Part shown: piece after piece, positions 54,505 to 63,901 of the stretch
Layout: the number at the start of each line of letters is the position of its first letter
How positions within the stretch are numbered: position 1 is the first letter of the stretch
Assembly (NCBI GenBank): GCA_025677825.1
Contig: JAIXMO010000071.1
Location: 1 to 64,000 of the forward strand
Origin: Helicostylum pulchrum
Lineage: Eukaryota > Mucoromycota > Mucoromycetes > Mucorales > Mucoraceae
Reading direction: 5' to 3'
DNA length: 64,000 nucleotides
Notes under the pieces: model-generated
Seen by the model: the letters and a program-made list of their open reading frames with translations, nothing else
Databases searched by the model: none
What the model was told of the DNA's origin: nothing
Program-made: the position numbers and the translations under genes

Positions 54505-55812
54505 GTTAAATGCAGTAAGAAGAAGAAAAAAATTATTATGTGTATGAATATATAGAAAAAAAAAGAAAAAAAAAGAGAGCACAAACGATCCATCCCAATG
54601 AACCTCCTTATTTACCAAACAGTTAAGGAAAGTAAGGTGATTGGATGAAACGAAAGATGACGTCAGTTTTAATTTCTTGGGGATTTTTATGAGCTCCATC
54701 CTTACCTAATTAAAGGGGCGCAAGGGCCGAACGGTGTTGAAACCGCGGCTAATGAAACTTTTCTAAGTTTCCTCGTTGTTATACGTCTTGATACGACAAA
54801 TGGCAAAGTCCTTGTTCTAAATAAGTATATGTAAGTAAAGATGTATAGATAAGTGTTATATTCCATACCAATTAATCAGAGTCATTAGCCACTATGTGCT
54901 GGTTACAGCCATAATGAGTAAATCATCGTGATATATTGTTCTAAGAGAGTAGTTAAAAGTAAAAGTAAGATTAATTTAGATGGGCCTCGAGTTAAATACA
55001 TAATATTTATATTTTGATATATCTTACCTGTACTAAAATCAAACATTATTTGTAGTCAACGGAAACCATGTAACTACCAGAATAAAGGGATCACATATCG
55101 GAATAAGATTAAGTAGACGGCACTCTTGGGTAAATAGATAAATGAGCTGCGTTCGTACTAAACCTTGGCATCAATAAAAACCTCTTGCCACCATTAAAAA
55201 ACCTTTCGAGAGGAAAAAAATTAAGGGGTACAAGAGGAAAAGATAACCAAAGAGTAGCATCAGCTTGAAAATATAGAGGCAGCAGTTGTTACCAAAGTCC
55301 ATAAAAGATTACTAACTAGCAAGAATTTTAGCAGGCCTTCAATAAAGGTAAGTAACCTATTGTAGGATTGATTTATTATAAATAAGGATAGATACTTTAC
55401 CAAGAGGATATGTAGATTTACAACACCTAAGTAGGTATTCGCTTTTCTTTTCAGCAACCATCTTGATTATCAGAACAGTGTATTTCTATAAAATAAGTAA
55501 AATTGAGTACCGTATATGAAAACTATTCTTTTCACTTATGAAACTTATACTTCCCTCTTTTTTCTCGGATAATGCAGATAAAAAAAAAATAAAGAAAGAA
55601 AAAAGTTGGAAGTTTGATTTATAGTTTGAGATGTCCTGATATACGAGTTTTTTTTTTAAAAAAAAAAATCTTATTTCAATCCTTTTATGAAAAAGTAGAT
55701 TCAAAACAATACGTTAAGCTACAAAAATGAGGATATGTTGACACCCTCCATTCTATTGAAATACTTAGTGTTTGAAAGTATACTTAAGTACCGTAAAAAA
55801 GATCGAGAGTAG
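54505..55812. other. Spacer left of the Fanzor element, no gene seen
   Basis: The RAB2 promoter must lie in the first 200 bases. A GC-richer patch (54715-54760) stands out in otherwise AT-rich DNA. A T10A11 palindrome is at 55648-55668. I searched by eye for an inverted copy of the 62.5-62.65 kb sequence and found only weak matches, so the left end of the mobile element is undefined. Confidence 0.4.
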
Positions 55813-56223
55813 TTAACAACATAACATGTGTATACTTTCATTATACTTGAGTTTCGTCCATTTGATTGGTGTAAGATGTCGATGAAACTTTATTCTAAAC
55901 TCAAAATAATATTTATTAAAAAAAAGAGAAATCTCTCGACTTCTAAACCATGAAAAATAGAAATATTTAGCGCCTACTTTCACTATTTTCGAGTTTGGGT
56001 TGTTTCGATTGACGTAAAAGACGAATAGTTGAGCAATAGCATTTTTCAGTGATATATTCTTTTGGTTGAGCGCTAGAAGGAGTCTCTTCGCCCATTGCAG
56101 GTGTGAGTCCGCTGTTACTGATAAATATAGGTACATATTTCTTTGTTTATGCAGGAGGGGCATAAACGTATCTGTATTTTCTTTGCCTTTATAAATCTCT
56201 TTCTTTACGCCATCTGTCGACAC
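55813..56223 (-). other. Open frame of 136 codons divergent to Fanzor, no ATG
   Basis: The frame opens with GTG at 56223 and reads TDGVKKEIYKGKENTDTFMP, then LHKQRNMYLYLSVTADSHLQ and NRNNPNSKIVKVGAKYFYFS. The first 100 residues have protein-like composition; the end is Tyr/Phe/Lys-rich and less so. It may be an exon of an element-borne gene, a relic, or chance. I recognise no family. Confidence 0.3.
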
Positions 56224-56289
56224 TTTTTTACTTTACACTTTATTATAATCTATCAGCCATCTTAGATAAGTATTCCAATTCTGATTAAA

Positions 56290-59200
56290 ATGTCAAGTAA
56301 GTGAAAAGAAGCTCTGTATGTGTATTTTAAACTAGTATTCATATCCTTTTCTGCTCAGGAAAAAGAAAGAATACCGGACCCGGACCAGGACCTTCCACTC
56401 GTCGAATAAAAGATAATGATCCTCCCGTTGAGCCTCCTCAAGATCCAAATTTGCTTGAACTCCCTAATGAAATTGTTTACTTTACCCGCAAATGCAAAGT
56501 TAGTACACTTCTGAATCCTCTATGTAATGGATATAGAGTAAGTATATAAATAGTACTATTGAGTATACATGCTTATAGTTTATTTTATTAGGACACGATG
56601 CGTACTATCGCCGAAGAATTTTCTATTCTTCGAAGAGATGCAGTTAATTTAACTCTCTTTATTGTTATACAATTCATGATAACCCAGCAAATTGAAATTA
56701 GAGAAAACTATACTAGAAGAATAACGAATATTCAACGTGCTGCTTATCAATTAGTTCATGATCTTGATTTTGCTCGTCAATTACAATTGGATTTAGAAAA
56801 TTTAAATCGAAATGTAGAAGTCCAAAGAGTACAAGAAGAGATTAACCATAACAATGTGTTAAATAACGTGCAAAATCAGTTGGACGAACGTATTACTGGT
56901 ATTCAACCAAACGTACAGCTTATAAACACCATCGTAGAAGAAATACAAGACTATATCGCGTTAGAAGAACCTAATTACGAATTGCTCAATGACCTTCATT
57001 TTGCGTTCACTGAAGCTATTGCAACCATTGTGCCTTTGGTCACAGCTCTTCAACAGTTTACGGCCGAGGTGGTACAAATGATTACTGATATTAAAAACAA
57101 TCTGGAAGGTAATTTGCCCGATATCATGAACATGTTGCCCGAACAAGAAAGAACAATACTACAAACCGTAATAGAAGCAAGAGCCTTGCAAGTTCAGAGC
57201 ATACAGACTCAGGCCTTGCTTCAAAGTCGTATGCAAAATCAGCGAAGATCAGGTATTTCTAATGCGGAAGCACTAGTCGAACAGCAGCTTGCTACCCAAA
57301 TTAGAGTATATCTTATGGCAGTTCAAAGTAGACTTCAAAGATTAGAAGAGTATGAGACACAAAATCAAAATTTTCTTGAACAAAATGAACACAGTCAACA
57401 TTATTTTTTAATTTACGGCACAATAACAAGAATTAACGCCATTATAAGTCGCTACGGTCAAATTTTCCAGCAAGTAGAAATAATCGGATAGCAATTACAC
57501 CTTATGACTATGGCCGAACAAACTAACATTATGTTTCCGGATATAACTAACGTTACATTCTGGTCTCATGTTTATCGAAAAGTTGCTTTGGACCCAAATG
57601 ATATGAATGCAATAATGGTAAGCCTTTTTTTTTTTTTTTTTTTTGAAGATATCCTAATAGTTACCTTTTTTTTCAAAATTTTCATCCGTCGATCACTAGA
57701 AACTTCAATGATTTTGATCTTTCAAGAAAGAGACCAGGTTTAGATGAATACTTATATCAAATTCCTCCCTTGGACTATACTCACCGTGCTATCTCTCATA
57801 ACTATGGTAGTACAATTATTCAGAGTAAGTTTATTATTATAGATTGTTTTTAGACTATATCTAACAAAACATGGTACATAGATACTATCATGCATCTTTT
57901 AAATATAAGATTGTGGGTTATTCGTATTTTCAAAGGTTTTTTTTATTAACCAGCAACGGCCTGACAGAAGACTACCTATCATGGGTTTAGGTATAACATT
58001 ATATACATTATTATTTTTGGTTACAATAGTAATTATACTAACATATCTTTTTTTCTGCAGCAAATAGAGTCGCTACCAGCATTGTTAATCATACCACTTT
58101 ACATAACTTTACTTTTCAAAATGAAGAAGAAAGTGCTGATGATTACCCTGGATTTGATGATCTCTACACCCGTGTTTTTCGAGTATACAACGCCGAATTT
58201 GGAAACAGTAACTACGAAGCAGTTGTAAATGACTACTCTAATGCTACCAACCACCCTTTGAAATACTTAAGAGCAAGTTACCGCCTATTGAAAATAGCTA
58301 CCGCTGAAGTCAATTTGAAAATAAAACTTTGGAATTTTTTACCTGATCCAGGTCACTCCATTGTATTTGCACCTTAGAGCGGCGTTGAGGCTATGTATGG
58401 AATTTTTAGAAGAGCTTCTCTTGGAAGACTCCCGGTCCCTGATTTTTTACTTGGATATCAAAATGAACTTGTTACTATCACCGAATTTAAAGATTTATAT
58501 TCCGCGCCCAATGACAAAAGGAGAATTTGGGAATCAATCTTCATCCTGGATAATCTTCAACATGGACTAGGTAACTTTGATGCTCCAGTAAGACTAGGAT
58601 ATGGTATGAAAACGGACGGGCATATGATATCCATTCTTTTCGAAAAAGATTCTCGTCTTTTTGTCCCCCTTACTACCGGAGACGTAAAAATGCAAAAGCG
58701 AAATATTACTCTTCAAAACTGGCAGAAAGGGATGTATCCGCTATATAAAAGCCCAACAGGAATCACCGAAAACGATAGAATTATTGGAATAGATCCCGGT
58801 AAGTTTCTCGAAAATATCGGTTTTACATTTATGCATGTATGTTTAAATTATTTGATATAGGTGTTAGGGATTTAATTTGTGGTGTTGATTGCCAAGATTT
58901 GGCGCTTACAAACAAATATACTACCCGTCAACATTCTTTCAGTTACAGTAACGCCACATATAAGTAAGCATATAATAAGCCTAAAATTTATGTAATTGAA
59001 ATCGGACATTAATTTTTTTCTTCTGACAGGCTCCGTTCTGGAATGGACTGGATTAAACAAAAAGAGCTGGTCAGTAGAGCTGTGGAAGGTATAAAATTGG
59101 TTTATGACAGATTGAAAACACGAAAAGTATGTAGCAACGGAGGTATTATGAACTTCTTAAATTCAGCCGCCGCGGAACAGAAAAGGTACAAGTGAAAGAT

Positions 59201-60286
59201 CTTCTTTTTACACAGCATTTATCCTAATATTCATTGTTTTTCTTTATACTTATAGTATTCATGAGTTTATGAAGTCGTACCGACATCGAGAGAATAAGGG
59301 GTACGCGTTTTCCAATCGACAAGCGTCACAAGATCATGCTGCTAGAGTAGTAATTGGGACAACACATACAGATGAACCATTCAAACTTTGTCATACCTCC
59401 ACTTCCAAACGTCGATACAGAAAAAGACGTTTATATCGCGAAACCATTAAGCAAATTTATTCGCAGCGCCCTTATCCTGCTCGTCCCCTTCCAATCCGTG
59501 ATTTGGTTCAAGACTCAAGAAGAACGGTAGTGGCGTATGGGGACGCATCTCTCAAAGGAACGTATAAAGGGAACACCCCTGTTCCCGTAAAGATAAAGAA
59601 AAACACGTTATAAAGCGTAGTATATATTTAGTAATTTTGGTTGTATATATAGAGTATACAAAGAGCAATCGCTAACAAAGCTATTGTTATATCAGTAGAC
59701 GAATTTCGTACGTCCGTCACCTGCTCACATTGCCTCAGAAGATTAGAGAACGTGTATAACGATACGTTCTTAGAATGTAATCACCGGTAATATTTTCTGG
59801 CACATTATGAATGTTGAATATCGCACTCAACCCTGTTTAACTTATAGAAAAAAAAACATCGTTATTATGATCAAGACAGCGAGAGTAACGACTGCCGAGC
59901 GTTTTTAAAATGTCTGGACGAAGATGGTAACATCCTACATAGATCAAGTGCTTGTCCAGAAGGTAAAGTATGCATTCTTGATTATTATAGAAAATCAATC
60001 TTATACTTTTTTAAGCTCAAGAAAAACGTCGCTTGATTTATCCACTGAAGCAATGCAAGGAATGTCCTATGAGTGCAAATACAGACATACAGGTATTTAA
60101 CATACATATGTATATAACGTATATTTTTTTAATATGTACCCTTTTTAGTATTGGAACAGGGATGTGAATGCGGCAACCAACATCCGTGAAATTCTTTTTC
60201 GGTATATCACGCATGGATTCGATTTGAATTCGAGGCAGCCTCAATTGTCTCGTATAAGAGAAATAAACGATGATGACGAAAACTAA
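56290..60286 (+). pseudogene. Fanzor: eukaryotic TnpB-like RNA-guided nuclease homologue (damaged copy)
   Basis: About 13 exons would encode roughly 1,080 residues. The N-terminus (PNEIVYFTRKCKVSTLLNPL) leads into a long helical region. The nuclease core is clear: RuvC-I IIGIDPGVRDLICGVDCQD (split by an intron at 58799-58860), VVAYGDASLKGTY, the segment VISVDEFRTSVTCSHCLRRL carrying an acidic pair and the first zinc-ribbon CxxC, the second CKEC, and RuvC-III YWNRDVNAATNIREIL. These are TnpB/Fanzor hallmarks. Known Fanzors use an RNA guide to cut DNA; activity here is not shown. Lesions: TAG at 57489-57491 and 58375-58377, a splice-phase conflict at 57617/57700, and one-base shifts at a T run (57938-57945) and an A run (59847-59855). 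A MULE transposase follows on the same strand. Confidence 0.87.
56640..57490 (+). other. Coiled-coil expansion within the Fanzor N-terminal region
   Basis: About 280 codons between the N-terminal helical start and the next conserved exon (FWSHVYRKVALDP) are rich in Gln, Asn, Glu and Leu, with heptad-like spacing (RQLQLDLENLNRNVEVQRVQ, VLNNVQNQLDERITG, IIVEEIQDY-like segments). It remains open until the TAG at 57489. Confidence 0.6.
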
Positions 60287-60359
60287 GCGTTTTTAAGTCT
60301 GGTTAAAAAAATAATCACATTTTTACTTTAATAAATATCAAATATTTTTATTTTAAACA
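60287..60359 (+). promoter_or_regulatory. Short AT-rich gap between Fanzor and MULE genes
   Basis: Only 73 bases separate the Fanzor TAA and the transposase ATG. The sequence is nearly all A/T. It must serve as Fanzor 3' end and transposase leader, or the two are transcribed together. Confidence 0.5.
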
Positions 60360-62503
60360 ATGTCAAGTAATAACGCTACATCTATTCATATCAGTTGTTA
60401 TACGCCCATTTCAGAGAGACTTACCGTACCTTTGACCAATTGGAAGAAATCCGTAGTAGACTATATTCCCCTACACGGTGTCAGATTTGTGAAAGGCACA
60501 ACTAGAACCGCAGAGGGGCAAGAGAGGGCAAAAGCTCAGCGATTAAATACCACCGAAGGTCCCAAGCCCAGAACCCGGTATATTGATTATGTTTTCAAAA
60601 CGTATTACTCTTGTCATCGTTCTGGTGAAAAGAGACAAACTAAACCGAGCAAAATAATAGCAGCGAAGGATCTAGAAAATTACAAAAAAAAGTAAAAAAA
60701 ATTGAATGTACTGCTAATTTGGTAGCTACCTGTTATAAAAGCGATCCTAATAATGTTGTCTTGCATCACACCGGTAACCATAATCATCAGATTGGTGGTC
60801 TTGAAGACTTGAAGTTTCTGCCATTGTCGCAAGTAGCTAAACAGTTGATTGAGCAAAGATTACGCGAAGGATTTAGAAAGAGAGACACCAGAATTTCAAT
60901 TCAAAACAATTTTCTTCGTTATAGTCAAGCCAACTTGAATACCGATGTAGAGCAATCTCTTGGTAACGAAGCTCAAGTTATCGTTCACCGTGATCAGATG
61001 GTTCACTCCACAGAGATTTATAACATCTATAAAAAAATCCAAGAAGCTTTCTACAAAAAAGCAGATGATCAGAAAGAATCTGTTAAACTTTGGTTGACCA
61101 AGTTAAAAGAAAATGAAGGATACAATACTTTTTTGGCAGATAATTTTGATAGCACCTTCTCGTTTGGATTTGTCTCATCATGGCAAAAGGCACTCTTGAT
61201 TGAAAGTGCAAGTGTATGTCCGGATGCCACTCATTGTACCTCTAACATTGATAAAGGGATACTTTACACCATCGTGACCCGTCATCCATGGACTGGTACA
61301 GGATGTTCTGTAGCATTCTTTTTTACGACTGATCATTCGATGTTACCAGTAAAGCATTTTCTTTACTTCTTGAGATATACCGTTCACTTTTCGGGCTGGA
61401 AAAAGATCACCATCGATATCAGTACCGCCGAAAGAAATGCAATCAATTCTGTCTACCCAGAAGTTGTGATTCAGTGGTGCCTTTTCCACGTCGCAAGAGC
61501 CTGGATGGGTAAGATTCGCGAGTATATCAAGCTTGGAAGTTCAGCAGCTAACGCCTGGGTACATAGAGCAATTATTACCGATTTTAAAAGAATGATGTGG
61601 GAGAAGGACACCTCTGTTTTTCTGCCAATGCTTAGTTAATTTGTGATTACTTATGCAGCATATCCTGATTTCATCCAGTACTTTAATCGACAATACTTGG
61701 AGAACGATGCTTTTATGCGCTGGTCTGTCGCCTTTCAGCCTCAAGTTTTTACCAGTATGGAGACCAACAACTATGTTGAGAGCTGGCACAATCAGCTTAA
61801 AACGACATATTTAAACAGAAAAAGAAATAGACGCGTTGATAGATTGATTTTCATCCTTGTCAGAGATGTACTTCCTGATTACGTTCAAAACGTAAACAGA
61901 ATGGTGTTGAATATCGGCAAAATGAGTCCAGAAGAAAGAAGAAGAAGGGCTCGCGAGATGAGTGCAGAAGATGTGAACGTGGCTACTCTTGTAACAATGA
62001 TTGAAGAGCTGGAAGAGCAAACTGGATACAAGGTTCGCTCTTTTTCAGATGAGGAAGTGTACTACATCATTCAAGTGGAGCAGGATAGCATAAAACCTTG
62101 TGGTTGTAAGGATTTCCGTTGGAACCGTATCTCTTGCAAGCACATGTACCTTCTCAAACGTTTGCACAGGGATTTAGCTACTTTTGAGCGTGAGTATAAA
62201 AAAAAATATCAGCATTTTTTTTTATTAAAATCTAACCATTATGTATTTTAAGCCGTCGTGTACGATGGAATTAGAATGGCAAGAGCTGAAGAAACAGCAA
62301 ACGAGGAACCTGTACTTGAACCTTCTACCGTATTCGATTTTTCTGACTTGATTGCAACATTATCTATGTATCAACACAATCCTCGCAATCTAAATGAGCA
62401 ACAGTTAGAAAGTATCAAATCACATGTAGATGAAATTAGTTTGTTACTTCAAAACGATGACAGATTACCTTCAAACATAAATTTACAAACGCAACATCGA
62501 TAA
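60360..62503 (+). pseudogene. Mutator-like (MULE) DDE transposase with SWIM zinc finger, damaged copy
   Basis: The frame starts MSSNNATSIHISCYTPISER. An N-terminal zinc-finger-like region (YYSCHRSGEK, IECTANLVATC, HHTGNHNH) resembles the FLYWCH/WRKY-type DNA-binding fold of MULEs. The catalytic core shows CPDATHCTS (first Asp), ITIDISTAERNAI (second Asp), the CxxH motif WCLFHVARAW, and TNNYVESWHNQLKTTYL (Glu). The SWIM finger is CGCKDFRWNRISCKHMYL. One intron (about 62191-62252) precedes the last exon. Lesions: a one-base shift in an A tract at 60684-60691 and an in-frame TAA at 61637-61639. Otherwise it is well preserved, so the insertion is not ancient. Confidence 0.85.
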
Positions 62504-62700
62504 AATAATAAAAAAAAAATAGTAATAAAAAAAAGAGGCCATGATTGATATTTAAAAGCCGCTTATCTGTTAGGTAAATAAGGGCGTTCTGCATGAAAAA
62601 ATACGTCACACTTTTTTTTGTCAATAGAACGTGTACCAAAGTTTTTGAATAATTTTTTTTCTTCAATAGATTTTATTTTTATAAAACAGTATAATATAAA
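62504..62700. other. Right flank of the Fanzor/MULE unit and UCH37 promoter
   Basis: This 197-base region must contain the right end of the mobile element and the promoter of the next gene. A 7-bp stem with a 2-base bulge forms between 62560-62566 (CGCTTAT) and 62578-62586 (ATAAGGGCG). T tracts at 62611-62620 and 62650-62660 precede the start. No terminal repeat could be paired with the left side. Confidence 0.45.
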
Positions 62701-63901
62701 ATGGCAGAAGAAATGTGGTGTACGATTGAAAGCGATCCTGGTAAATCACTATACGGAAAGAGACAAGCCAAAAGTAAAATTGACCTTTTTTTTATGCAGG
62801 TGTTTTCACCGAGTTGATGGCAGGTATGGGTGTTCAAGGTGTTCAAATGGAAGAAATTTATAGTTTAGACGAAGCAACCATGGAAGAATTAAAGTAATTA
62901 TTAACTACATCGATTACTTTTTTTAAAAAAGAAAACCAACTAAAAAACAATTTCATGTGTAGACCTATTTATGGTTTAATCTTTTTATTCAAATGGCAAA
63001 ATAAGAAGAATGGACAACCTGCTCCTGAAGTTGATGAAAATTCGAACGTATTCTTTGCTAACCAAGTCATTAACAATGCTTGTGCCACACAAGCTATTTT
63101 GCAAATCTTGTTAAATAGAGACGATATAGAAATTGGACAAGAATTAAGAAACTTTAAAGAATTTACAGCGGATTTTCCTCCTGACGTACGAAAAAAATAT
63201 TATATGTTGTATCCATATAGGAAAGACTTAACCATTCTTACTATTTAGATGAAAGGATTAGCTATCTCTAATAGTGAATTGGTCCGCACAGTGCATAATA
63301 GTTTTGCTAGATCAGACCCTTTTGTTAATGAAATTGTTGATCCTAATGCAGGAAAAGACCAAGACGTATACCATTTTATTGCTTATACACCTATTCATGG
63401 TGCACTTTATGAATTGGATGGATTGAGCCGAGGACCAGTGAATTTAGGTGCATGTGATGATAACAATTGGACTAACCAAGCCAATGAAGCTATTCAACGT
63501 CGTATGCAGGGATATGGAGATTCTGAATTGCATTTTAGTTTAATGGCTTTAACCAAGGATAAAGTTGAATGCTATCAAGAACAAATTGAGGAATTGGATG
63601 GCTTACTTTTATCTCTTGGTGAAGATGCTGTAAATGAAAGAAATCAATTAAATAATCAACGTAGTTCGTTACAACACAAGTTACATTTGGAACAAGAAAA
63701 GAGAGCTAGATGGCATGTAAGTTATACAAATAAAGATGCACTTTTTTTTTTAATACGTGGAATTTAATTGTTTTCATATAGAGAGAAAATGTATTGAGAA
63801 AGCATAATTTTATACCAATGATTTACAATCTTTTAAAGAAACTCGCTGAAAAGGATCAATTAGTACCACTTGTCGCAAAGGCCAAAGAAAAAAAGCAATA
63901 A
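62701..63901 (+). CDS. UCH37: Proteasome-associated ubiquitin C-terminal hydrolase UCH37/UCHL5
   Basis: This is a deubiquitinase that binds the 19S proteasome (or INO80) and trims ubiquitin chains. Exons are inferred from the ATG at 62701 to the TAA at 63899-63901. The start [19 protein letters not shown] is typical. The catalytic cysteine lies in [14 protein letters not shown], and the catalytic histidine in [20 protein letters not shown] with the following GL. The C-terminal helical and ULD-like tail is present ([20 protein letters not shown]), with a Lys-rich end. All junctions are GT-AG and in phase. It lies just right of the Fanzor/MULE unit and appears undamaged. Confidence 0.94.

Follow-up and report, generated by a model that had tools for sequence, protein, structure and literature searches.

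Fanzors, the RNA-guided nucleases of eukaryotes, are relatives of the CRISPR nuclease Cas12, and the mark of the Fanzor2 group is an IS607-type element with a serine recombinase. The DNA analyzed (the window; 64,000 nucleotides, contig C138, positions 1 to 64000, of a genome of 32.2 Mb in 168 contigs) very probably comes from a mucoralean fungus, most likely Helicostylum pulchrum, and contains a Mutator-like (MULE) transposon that carries a predicted Fanzor1 gene. MuDr-like elements of Mucorales that carry Fanzor1 genes and have inverted repeats as well as duplications have been in print since 2013 (PMC3627910). Those elements share with ours the Fanzor1, the host order, the inverted repeats and the duplications; however, they are stated to be without a MuDR transposase and to have 9-bp duplications, whereas the present element has a MULE transposase, and the exact duplications seen, in two of seven paired elements, are of 8 bp.

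The best match by both profile and fold is SpuFz1 of Spizellomyces punctatus (PMC10432273; structures 8gkh and 9ceu), which shares the RuvC domain, the zinc ribbon and the glutamate of a DE[FY].TS motif. SpuFz1 is encoded by one open reading frame (ORF) in a locus of ~2.1 kb with no transposase reported between the repeats, whereas here we find 13 exons and a transposase; its ~600 resolved residues leave no space for the 290-residue insertion of the window family, and its ghost loci have both repeats whereas the solo ends described below have one. PpFz1 of Parasitella parasitica (PMC11423790; 9cf0 and 9cf1) is likewise a mucoralean Fanzor1 with a lineage-specific insertion and a fold match. 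Its insertion comprises ~100 residues in RuvC (FRI) and binds cyclophilin, whereas ours comprises ~290 residues in the N-terminal part, and PpFz1 was not among the 11 PDB chains returned by the family sequence profile at E <= 10. The MULE-Mucorales transposons (PMC6446971), compared by description only, are also MULEs of Mucoromycota with a transposase and a SWIM finger, and theirs have repeats of ~40 bp; they differ in having one ORF and 10-bp duplications, and the word Fanzor is absent from the main text of that paper. No report of a Fanzor and a MULE transposase in one element was found in the open-licence PMC papers searched, which is weak evidence of absence; the pairing appears to be new.

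The element spans 8 kb (54600-62589) between terminal inverted repeats (TIRs) of 28 bp that are 86% complementary, the left end (LE) at 54600-54627 on the plus strand and the right end (RE) at 62562-62589 on the minus strand. A genome-wide search for the 28-bp TIR pattern with up to 3 mismatches found 33 such ends, compared with 0 for the reversed pattern used as a control. Between the TIRs lie a 1.7-kb left region without a recognized gene (54600-56289), the Fanzor gene (56290-60286, plus strand), a MULE transposase gene (60360-62251, plus strand) and a further 0.34 kb of DNA. The MULE domain (PF10551) was matched by the piece 60644-61639 at 30.8 bits, above the cut-off of 27.6 bits, while the FAR1-like N-terminus and the SWIM finger were seen only under cut-off; a longer open transposase copy (L012) scored 27.1 bits for MULE and 22.9 bits for FAR1, just or well under cut-off. 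In the window the reading frame of the transposase gene slips near 60690 and is interrupted by a TAA at 61637-61639. The MULE transposase and the TIRs place this Fanzor in a eukaryotic DNA transposon that is not of the IS607 type.

We favor, with a probability of about 0.8, the reading that a MULE transposon carrying a Fanzor1 nuclease gene is present here in decayed form, and that the system would act as follows: (i) in undamaged copies, the MULE transposase would cut and paste the element at TGACRT-type sites, (ii) the Fanzor would bind a short RNA read from an element end into the flank, (iii) it would cut DNA that matches this RNA, most probably at the donor site after excision or at the empty site of the sister or homologue, and (iv) repair of the cut would then copy the element back. 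For other Fanzors, RNA from an element end is described as directing the nuclease to flank-matching DNA (PMC10432273, PMC10711439, PMC11423790). The element combines a Fanzor with a MULE transposase of the DDE type, both ends and a sharp target motif, and several young copies of it lie in one mucoralean genome, so that transposition and RNA-guided cutting could be tested together in a natural setting.

The Fanzor gene model, built from homologous proteins and other genomic copies, runs from an ATG at 56290 to a stop ending at 60286 and predicts a protein of ~1000 residues from 13 exons (56290-56296, 56359-56537, 56592-57617, 57677-57824, 57882-57990, 58061-58798, 58861-58963, 59030-59185, 59256-59592, 59653-59786, 59848-59962, 60016-60092 and 60149-60286, all plus strand) separated by 12 introns of 53-70 nt each. 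RuvC-I (GIDPG/VRD, 58785-58872) is interrupted by the intron 58799-58860, which cuts the second G codon of GIDPG. Exon 10 encodes VDEFRTS and the zinc-ribbon CSHC and contains the PF07282 match, exon 12 encodes CKEC, and exon 13 encodes RuvC-III (NRDVNAATNI) and the stop. These motifs occur in the correct order, each within an open exon frame, and the window letters retain the aspartates of GIDPG and NRDVNAA, the glutamate of VDEFRTS (which we take to be the catalytic one from its position, following published accounts) and the four zinc cysteines. A preliminary description, made from the sequence alone, had given the start, the end and the motif order correctly, and its count of about a dozen introns, one of them splitting RuvC-I, agrees with the model. 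We dropped a separate upstream gene at 56290-57491, as homologues P0002, P0003 and P0004 show a single protein.

Several comparisons place this gene in Fanzor1. The spliced product fits the Bao & Jurka pattern (D-X(125,275)-[TS][TS]XX-C4-X(5,50)-RD, with a spacing of 5-90 allowed between the CXXC pairs), which was fitted by none of 2000 sequences made by shuffling its residues, and it also fits the stricter form G.D.G...DE.[RK][TS]S..C..C...RD.NA. Against PF07282 (TNB) the window product scored 22.1 bits (E 1.8e-4), under the cut-off of 26.3 bits, and this damaged product alone gave no PDB sequence match. Precomputed PF07282 matches are listed for 5 of 21 mucoralean homologues (P0004, P0005, P0007, P0014 and P0021), while our rescan gave 25.5 bits for P0004 and 20.0 bits for P0003, both under cut-off; the guided_TnpB profile matched P0005 at E 3.4e-5, also under cut-off. 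A profile of 16 homologues (A1) found SpuFz1 at E 9.3e-4. We also modeled P0003, the Mucor circinelloides homologue of 985 residues, with AlphaFold from 16 sequences (mean pLDDT 64.6, pTM 0.37). A Foldseek search with this model gave six PDB chains with E under 1e-3; every one is a Fanzor, and a solved Fanzor1 was matched at E 9.1e-8. The preliminary identification as a Fanzor, for which profile and structure searches had been proposed as checks, is therefore supported by the motifs, by the homologue profiles and by the fold matches of the P0003 model, and neither of the two outcomes that would have spoken against it occurred. The serine recombinase that marks Fanzor2 was not found among the scanned ORFs, which gave TNB, MULE, FAR1 and SWIM, some short ORFs being unscanned.

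At E <= 1e-3 the window product matched 31 proteins. The best, at 89-91% identity over the covered part, come from Helicostylum pulchrum, bearing out the mucoralean host proposed at the outset; the others come from Mucor, Choanephora, Rhizopus, Lichtheimia and Cunninghamella, so that the homologues span six genera, and those aligned are ~30-55% identical to the window product.

The window copy of the Fanzor gene is a pseudogene. It carries in-frame TAG codons at 57489-57491 (common to C108) and 58375-58377 (missing from the three other long copies), it has lost the splice acceptor before 57677 and the donor after 59592, neither loss being present in the other long copies, and its frame slips at two homopolymers, a run of T near 57940 and the A run at 59848, where sequencing errors could be responsible. 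Base changes private to this copy, inspected for a RIP-like bias, are tilted towards G>A (18), but C>T changes number 10. The search for undamaged copies suggested in the preliminary description came up empty among the four long family-1 copies compared (window, C108, C32 and C115), each of which bears at least one stop; in C108, C32 and C115, between one and four exons also show net indels when compared with the window copy.

With six lesions in the window copy and stops in all four long copies, the Fanzor might be an inert passenger of the MULE, its nuclease role lost throughout the family. Folding of the candidate guide regions gave no RNA signal either. The regions folded were 77-nt pieces of the LE and the RE, each on either strand, the 72-nt spacer that separates the Fanzor and transposase genes, and 150 nt at the RE; the lowest z-score was -1.67, for the minus strand of the RE, and the highest was +0.67. 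An Rfam search gave nothing above gathering and a single sub-threshold match, which lies outside the element. We nevertheless consider a dead passenger unlikely. Between copies, the ratio of non-synonymous to synonymous change (dN/dS) is 0.26-0.68 for the Fanzor gene (six comparisons), that is, non-synonymous change below synonymous; for the transposase gene it is 0.70-1.06 (five comparisons, the sixth pair being identical). The Fanzor values are consistent with selection on the Fanzor during spread of the family, without proving it. Moreover, the active-site and zinc motifs are present in most rows of the homologue alignment, although P0011 is without the first D, and homologues are found in six genera.

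The N-terminal part of the predicted protein (56359-57600, plus strand; exons 2-3) contains a helical insertion of ~290 residues. In an alignment of 16 homologues, P0002, P0003, P0004, P0007, P0010 and P0013 have ~240-300 extra residues between a conserved RRDA..N helix and a P.(I/L)T...W segment, whereas in P0014 and P0015 (Lichtheimia) and P0021 (Cunninghamella) the same two segments are joined by ~10-40 residues; the remaining 7 of the 16 begin inside the gene and are hence uninformative on the insertion. By genus, the insertion is present in Mucor, Rhizopus and Helicostylum and absent from the two Lichtheimia homologues and the one Cunninghamella homologue. In the P0003 model it is predicted to form seven helices, the longest of 60 residues. 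Matches of the helical part to pore toxins and designed bundles are usual for helical bundles, and we do not read them as a sign of kinship. A profile search with A3 found 4 proteins only. The 2024 structural survey (PMC11423790) gives 600-700 residues for most Fanzor1s, a length that is typical without defining the group, and the one insertion it highlights is that in the RuvC of PpFz1. P0003 (985 residues) and P0004 (999 residues) lie outside this range; the form of ~1000 residues with a helical insertion thus extends the known sizes of Fanzor1, and the helical part of ~290 residues appears to be new. The most tentative of our proposals is that it may serve as a partner or dimerization surface and not as a catalytic part.

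An extra part of this size, unmentioned in the available accounts of solved Fanzors, would also suit a Fanzor that acts without cutting DNA, either as an RNA-guided binder or as a structural or regulatory factor working through the insertion. The window letters, however, retain the D, E, D set and the zinc ribbon, and we regard a non-cutting role as quite improbable.

Besides the window, the genome holds three near-identical long copies, C108, C32 and C115, the last without its left end, and two deleted copies at C94:30860 (half of the Fanzor gene gone) and C94:130257 (internal deletion); the further copies are at 97-99% identity. A second, diverged Fanzor family (C139, C166, C116, C83 and C87) is 66-78% identical in Fanzor DNA over aligned pieces and is related to P0004. 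Its transposase gene is shortened (open frame 201 aa) and lies in convergent orientation, and pieces of its left region are 97-98% identical to that of the window, with some adjoining pieces at 87-93%. Within the window's left region, 55134-55566 is 66-84% like pieces at ~20 other genomic loci, six of which were fetched (L041-L046); no coding frame was seen.

A domesticated resident host gene that came to lie between transposon remnants by chance is barely credible: the gene is spliced, host-like and has 12 introns, and the window copy is without a flanking duplication, but gene, transposase and both ends recur together at C108 and C32 (at C115 without the left end), no fetched copy contains the left flank of the window, and the window copy is a pseudogene. 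The preliminary view of a eukaryotic Fanzor with introns holds with two amendments: the gene belongs to a multicopy MULE transposon as cargo and is no resident gene of the host, and the window copy is a pseudogene. The argument that its introns imply long residence in a eukaryotic genome is plausible; in a rough check of intron sharing, both Fanzor families had tblastn breaks close to residues 801 and 952 of P0004.

TGACGT lies in the host flank 13 nt beyond the window's RE (62603-62608, minus strand). Genome-wide we found 20 right-type ends, of which 19 were counted after removal of C115, which repeats the C138 flank. TGACGT or its complement occurs within 30 nt of 10 of these 19, eight of them sharing one orientation and two reversed. 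It is absent near all 15 left-type ends (Fisher P 7e-4 for the contrast with right-type ends) and occurs in 0.6% of 30-mers from the window (binomial 5.5e-18). Because the motif was picked post hoc, these figures serve as description; correcting for every hexamer would leave the conclusion unchanged. TGACRT stands exactly 13 nt from the right junction in 8 of 19 cases (5 TGACGT, 3 TGACAT), namely in the window and at L009, L015, L017, L018, L021, L032 and L036, and the motif also stands at 14-17 nt at L021, L029 and L030. Two of the eight (C90 and C166) adjoin or sit within another transposon end rather than ordinary host DNA. On inspection, C132:23048, which is counted among the 19, looks left-type, and without it the counts are 10/18 and 8/18. 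At L021 (1855-5845), right-type ends face each other, each adjoining TGACGT, with a third right-type stump outside.

MULE target duplications are 8-11 bp long. Among seven paired elements, we found exact 8-bp duplications in C87 and C139 and a 7-bp repeat within a T run in C108, and none in C138 (window), C32, C94 and C83. Motif and duplication occur together in C87; C139 has the duplication without the 13-nt motif, and C108 has the 13-nt motif with its 7-bp repeat. From these few elements, a joint rule TGACRT-N5-[8-bp duplication] is likely. The missing duplications may reflect ectopic recombination or assembly joins, which we suspect because the window and C115 share transposase (0 differences over 619 codons) and right flank (99.4% identical over 0.97 kb) while C115 is without the left end. 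A preference for promoters was also considered and is not supported: an ATG-led ORF of at least 59 aa lies within 350 bp outward of 7 of 15 right ends and 1 of 13 left ends, but also of 34% of random window positions. This check left out right ends C90:384844, both of C132 and C166, and left ends C166 and C79.

The first 77 nt of the left end (54600-54676, plus strand) also occur solo elsewhere in the genome, at C57 (83 nt), C93 (78 nt), C123 (78 nt), C102 (77 nt) and C125 (77 nt), in unrelated surroundings and with 98.7-98.8% identity (L022 2028-2110, L023 2044-2121, L024 2070-2147, L025 2041-2117 and L026 2003-2079). In C166 (L015 3466-3542) the same 77 nt (97.4%) abut a right end directly. 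Within the left end lies TGACGTCA (54658-54665, plus strand), from which TGACGT plus 13 nt reaches LE position 77 exactly, the insertion point expected by the rule. Plain excision footprints are disfavored as an explanation of the five solo ends: none of the five is bracketed by an 8-bp repeat, and no ACGTCA was seen by eye 13 nt rightward.

If the guide begins just past the target duplication and extends over ~15 nt, as described for other Fanzor1 elements, and if the right end is the one it is read from, its sequence would be N5-AYGTCA-N4 in 8 of 19 right ends, so that it would contain the CRE-like motif of the site of insertion. This leads to a bolder idea, to which we give long odds, that the target rule of the transposase is also the guide of the Fanzor. 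The nuclease could then recognize, besides the empty site of its own element, other CRE-type sites of related sequence, which would make homing partly programmed, and the solo 77-nt ends would be by-products or separately mobile units of guide-RNA size.

The element is preceded by a gene for a Ras-family GTPase (PF00071) and directly followed by a ubiquitin C-terminal hydrolase gene (PF01088). This right flank is common to three contigs (window 62590-63564, L011 9030-10000 and L010 9201-9676), and the tails of C115 and C32 at their contig ends may be artifacts of assembly. Elsewhere in the genome there are 18 PF07282 matches, 17 of them above cut-off and 0 at the C138 locus, which points to several other Fanzor/TnpB-like loci.
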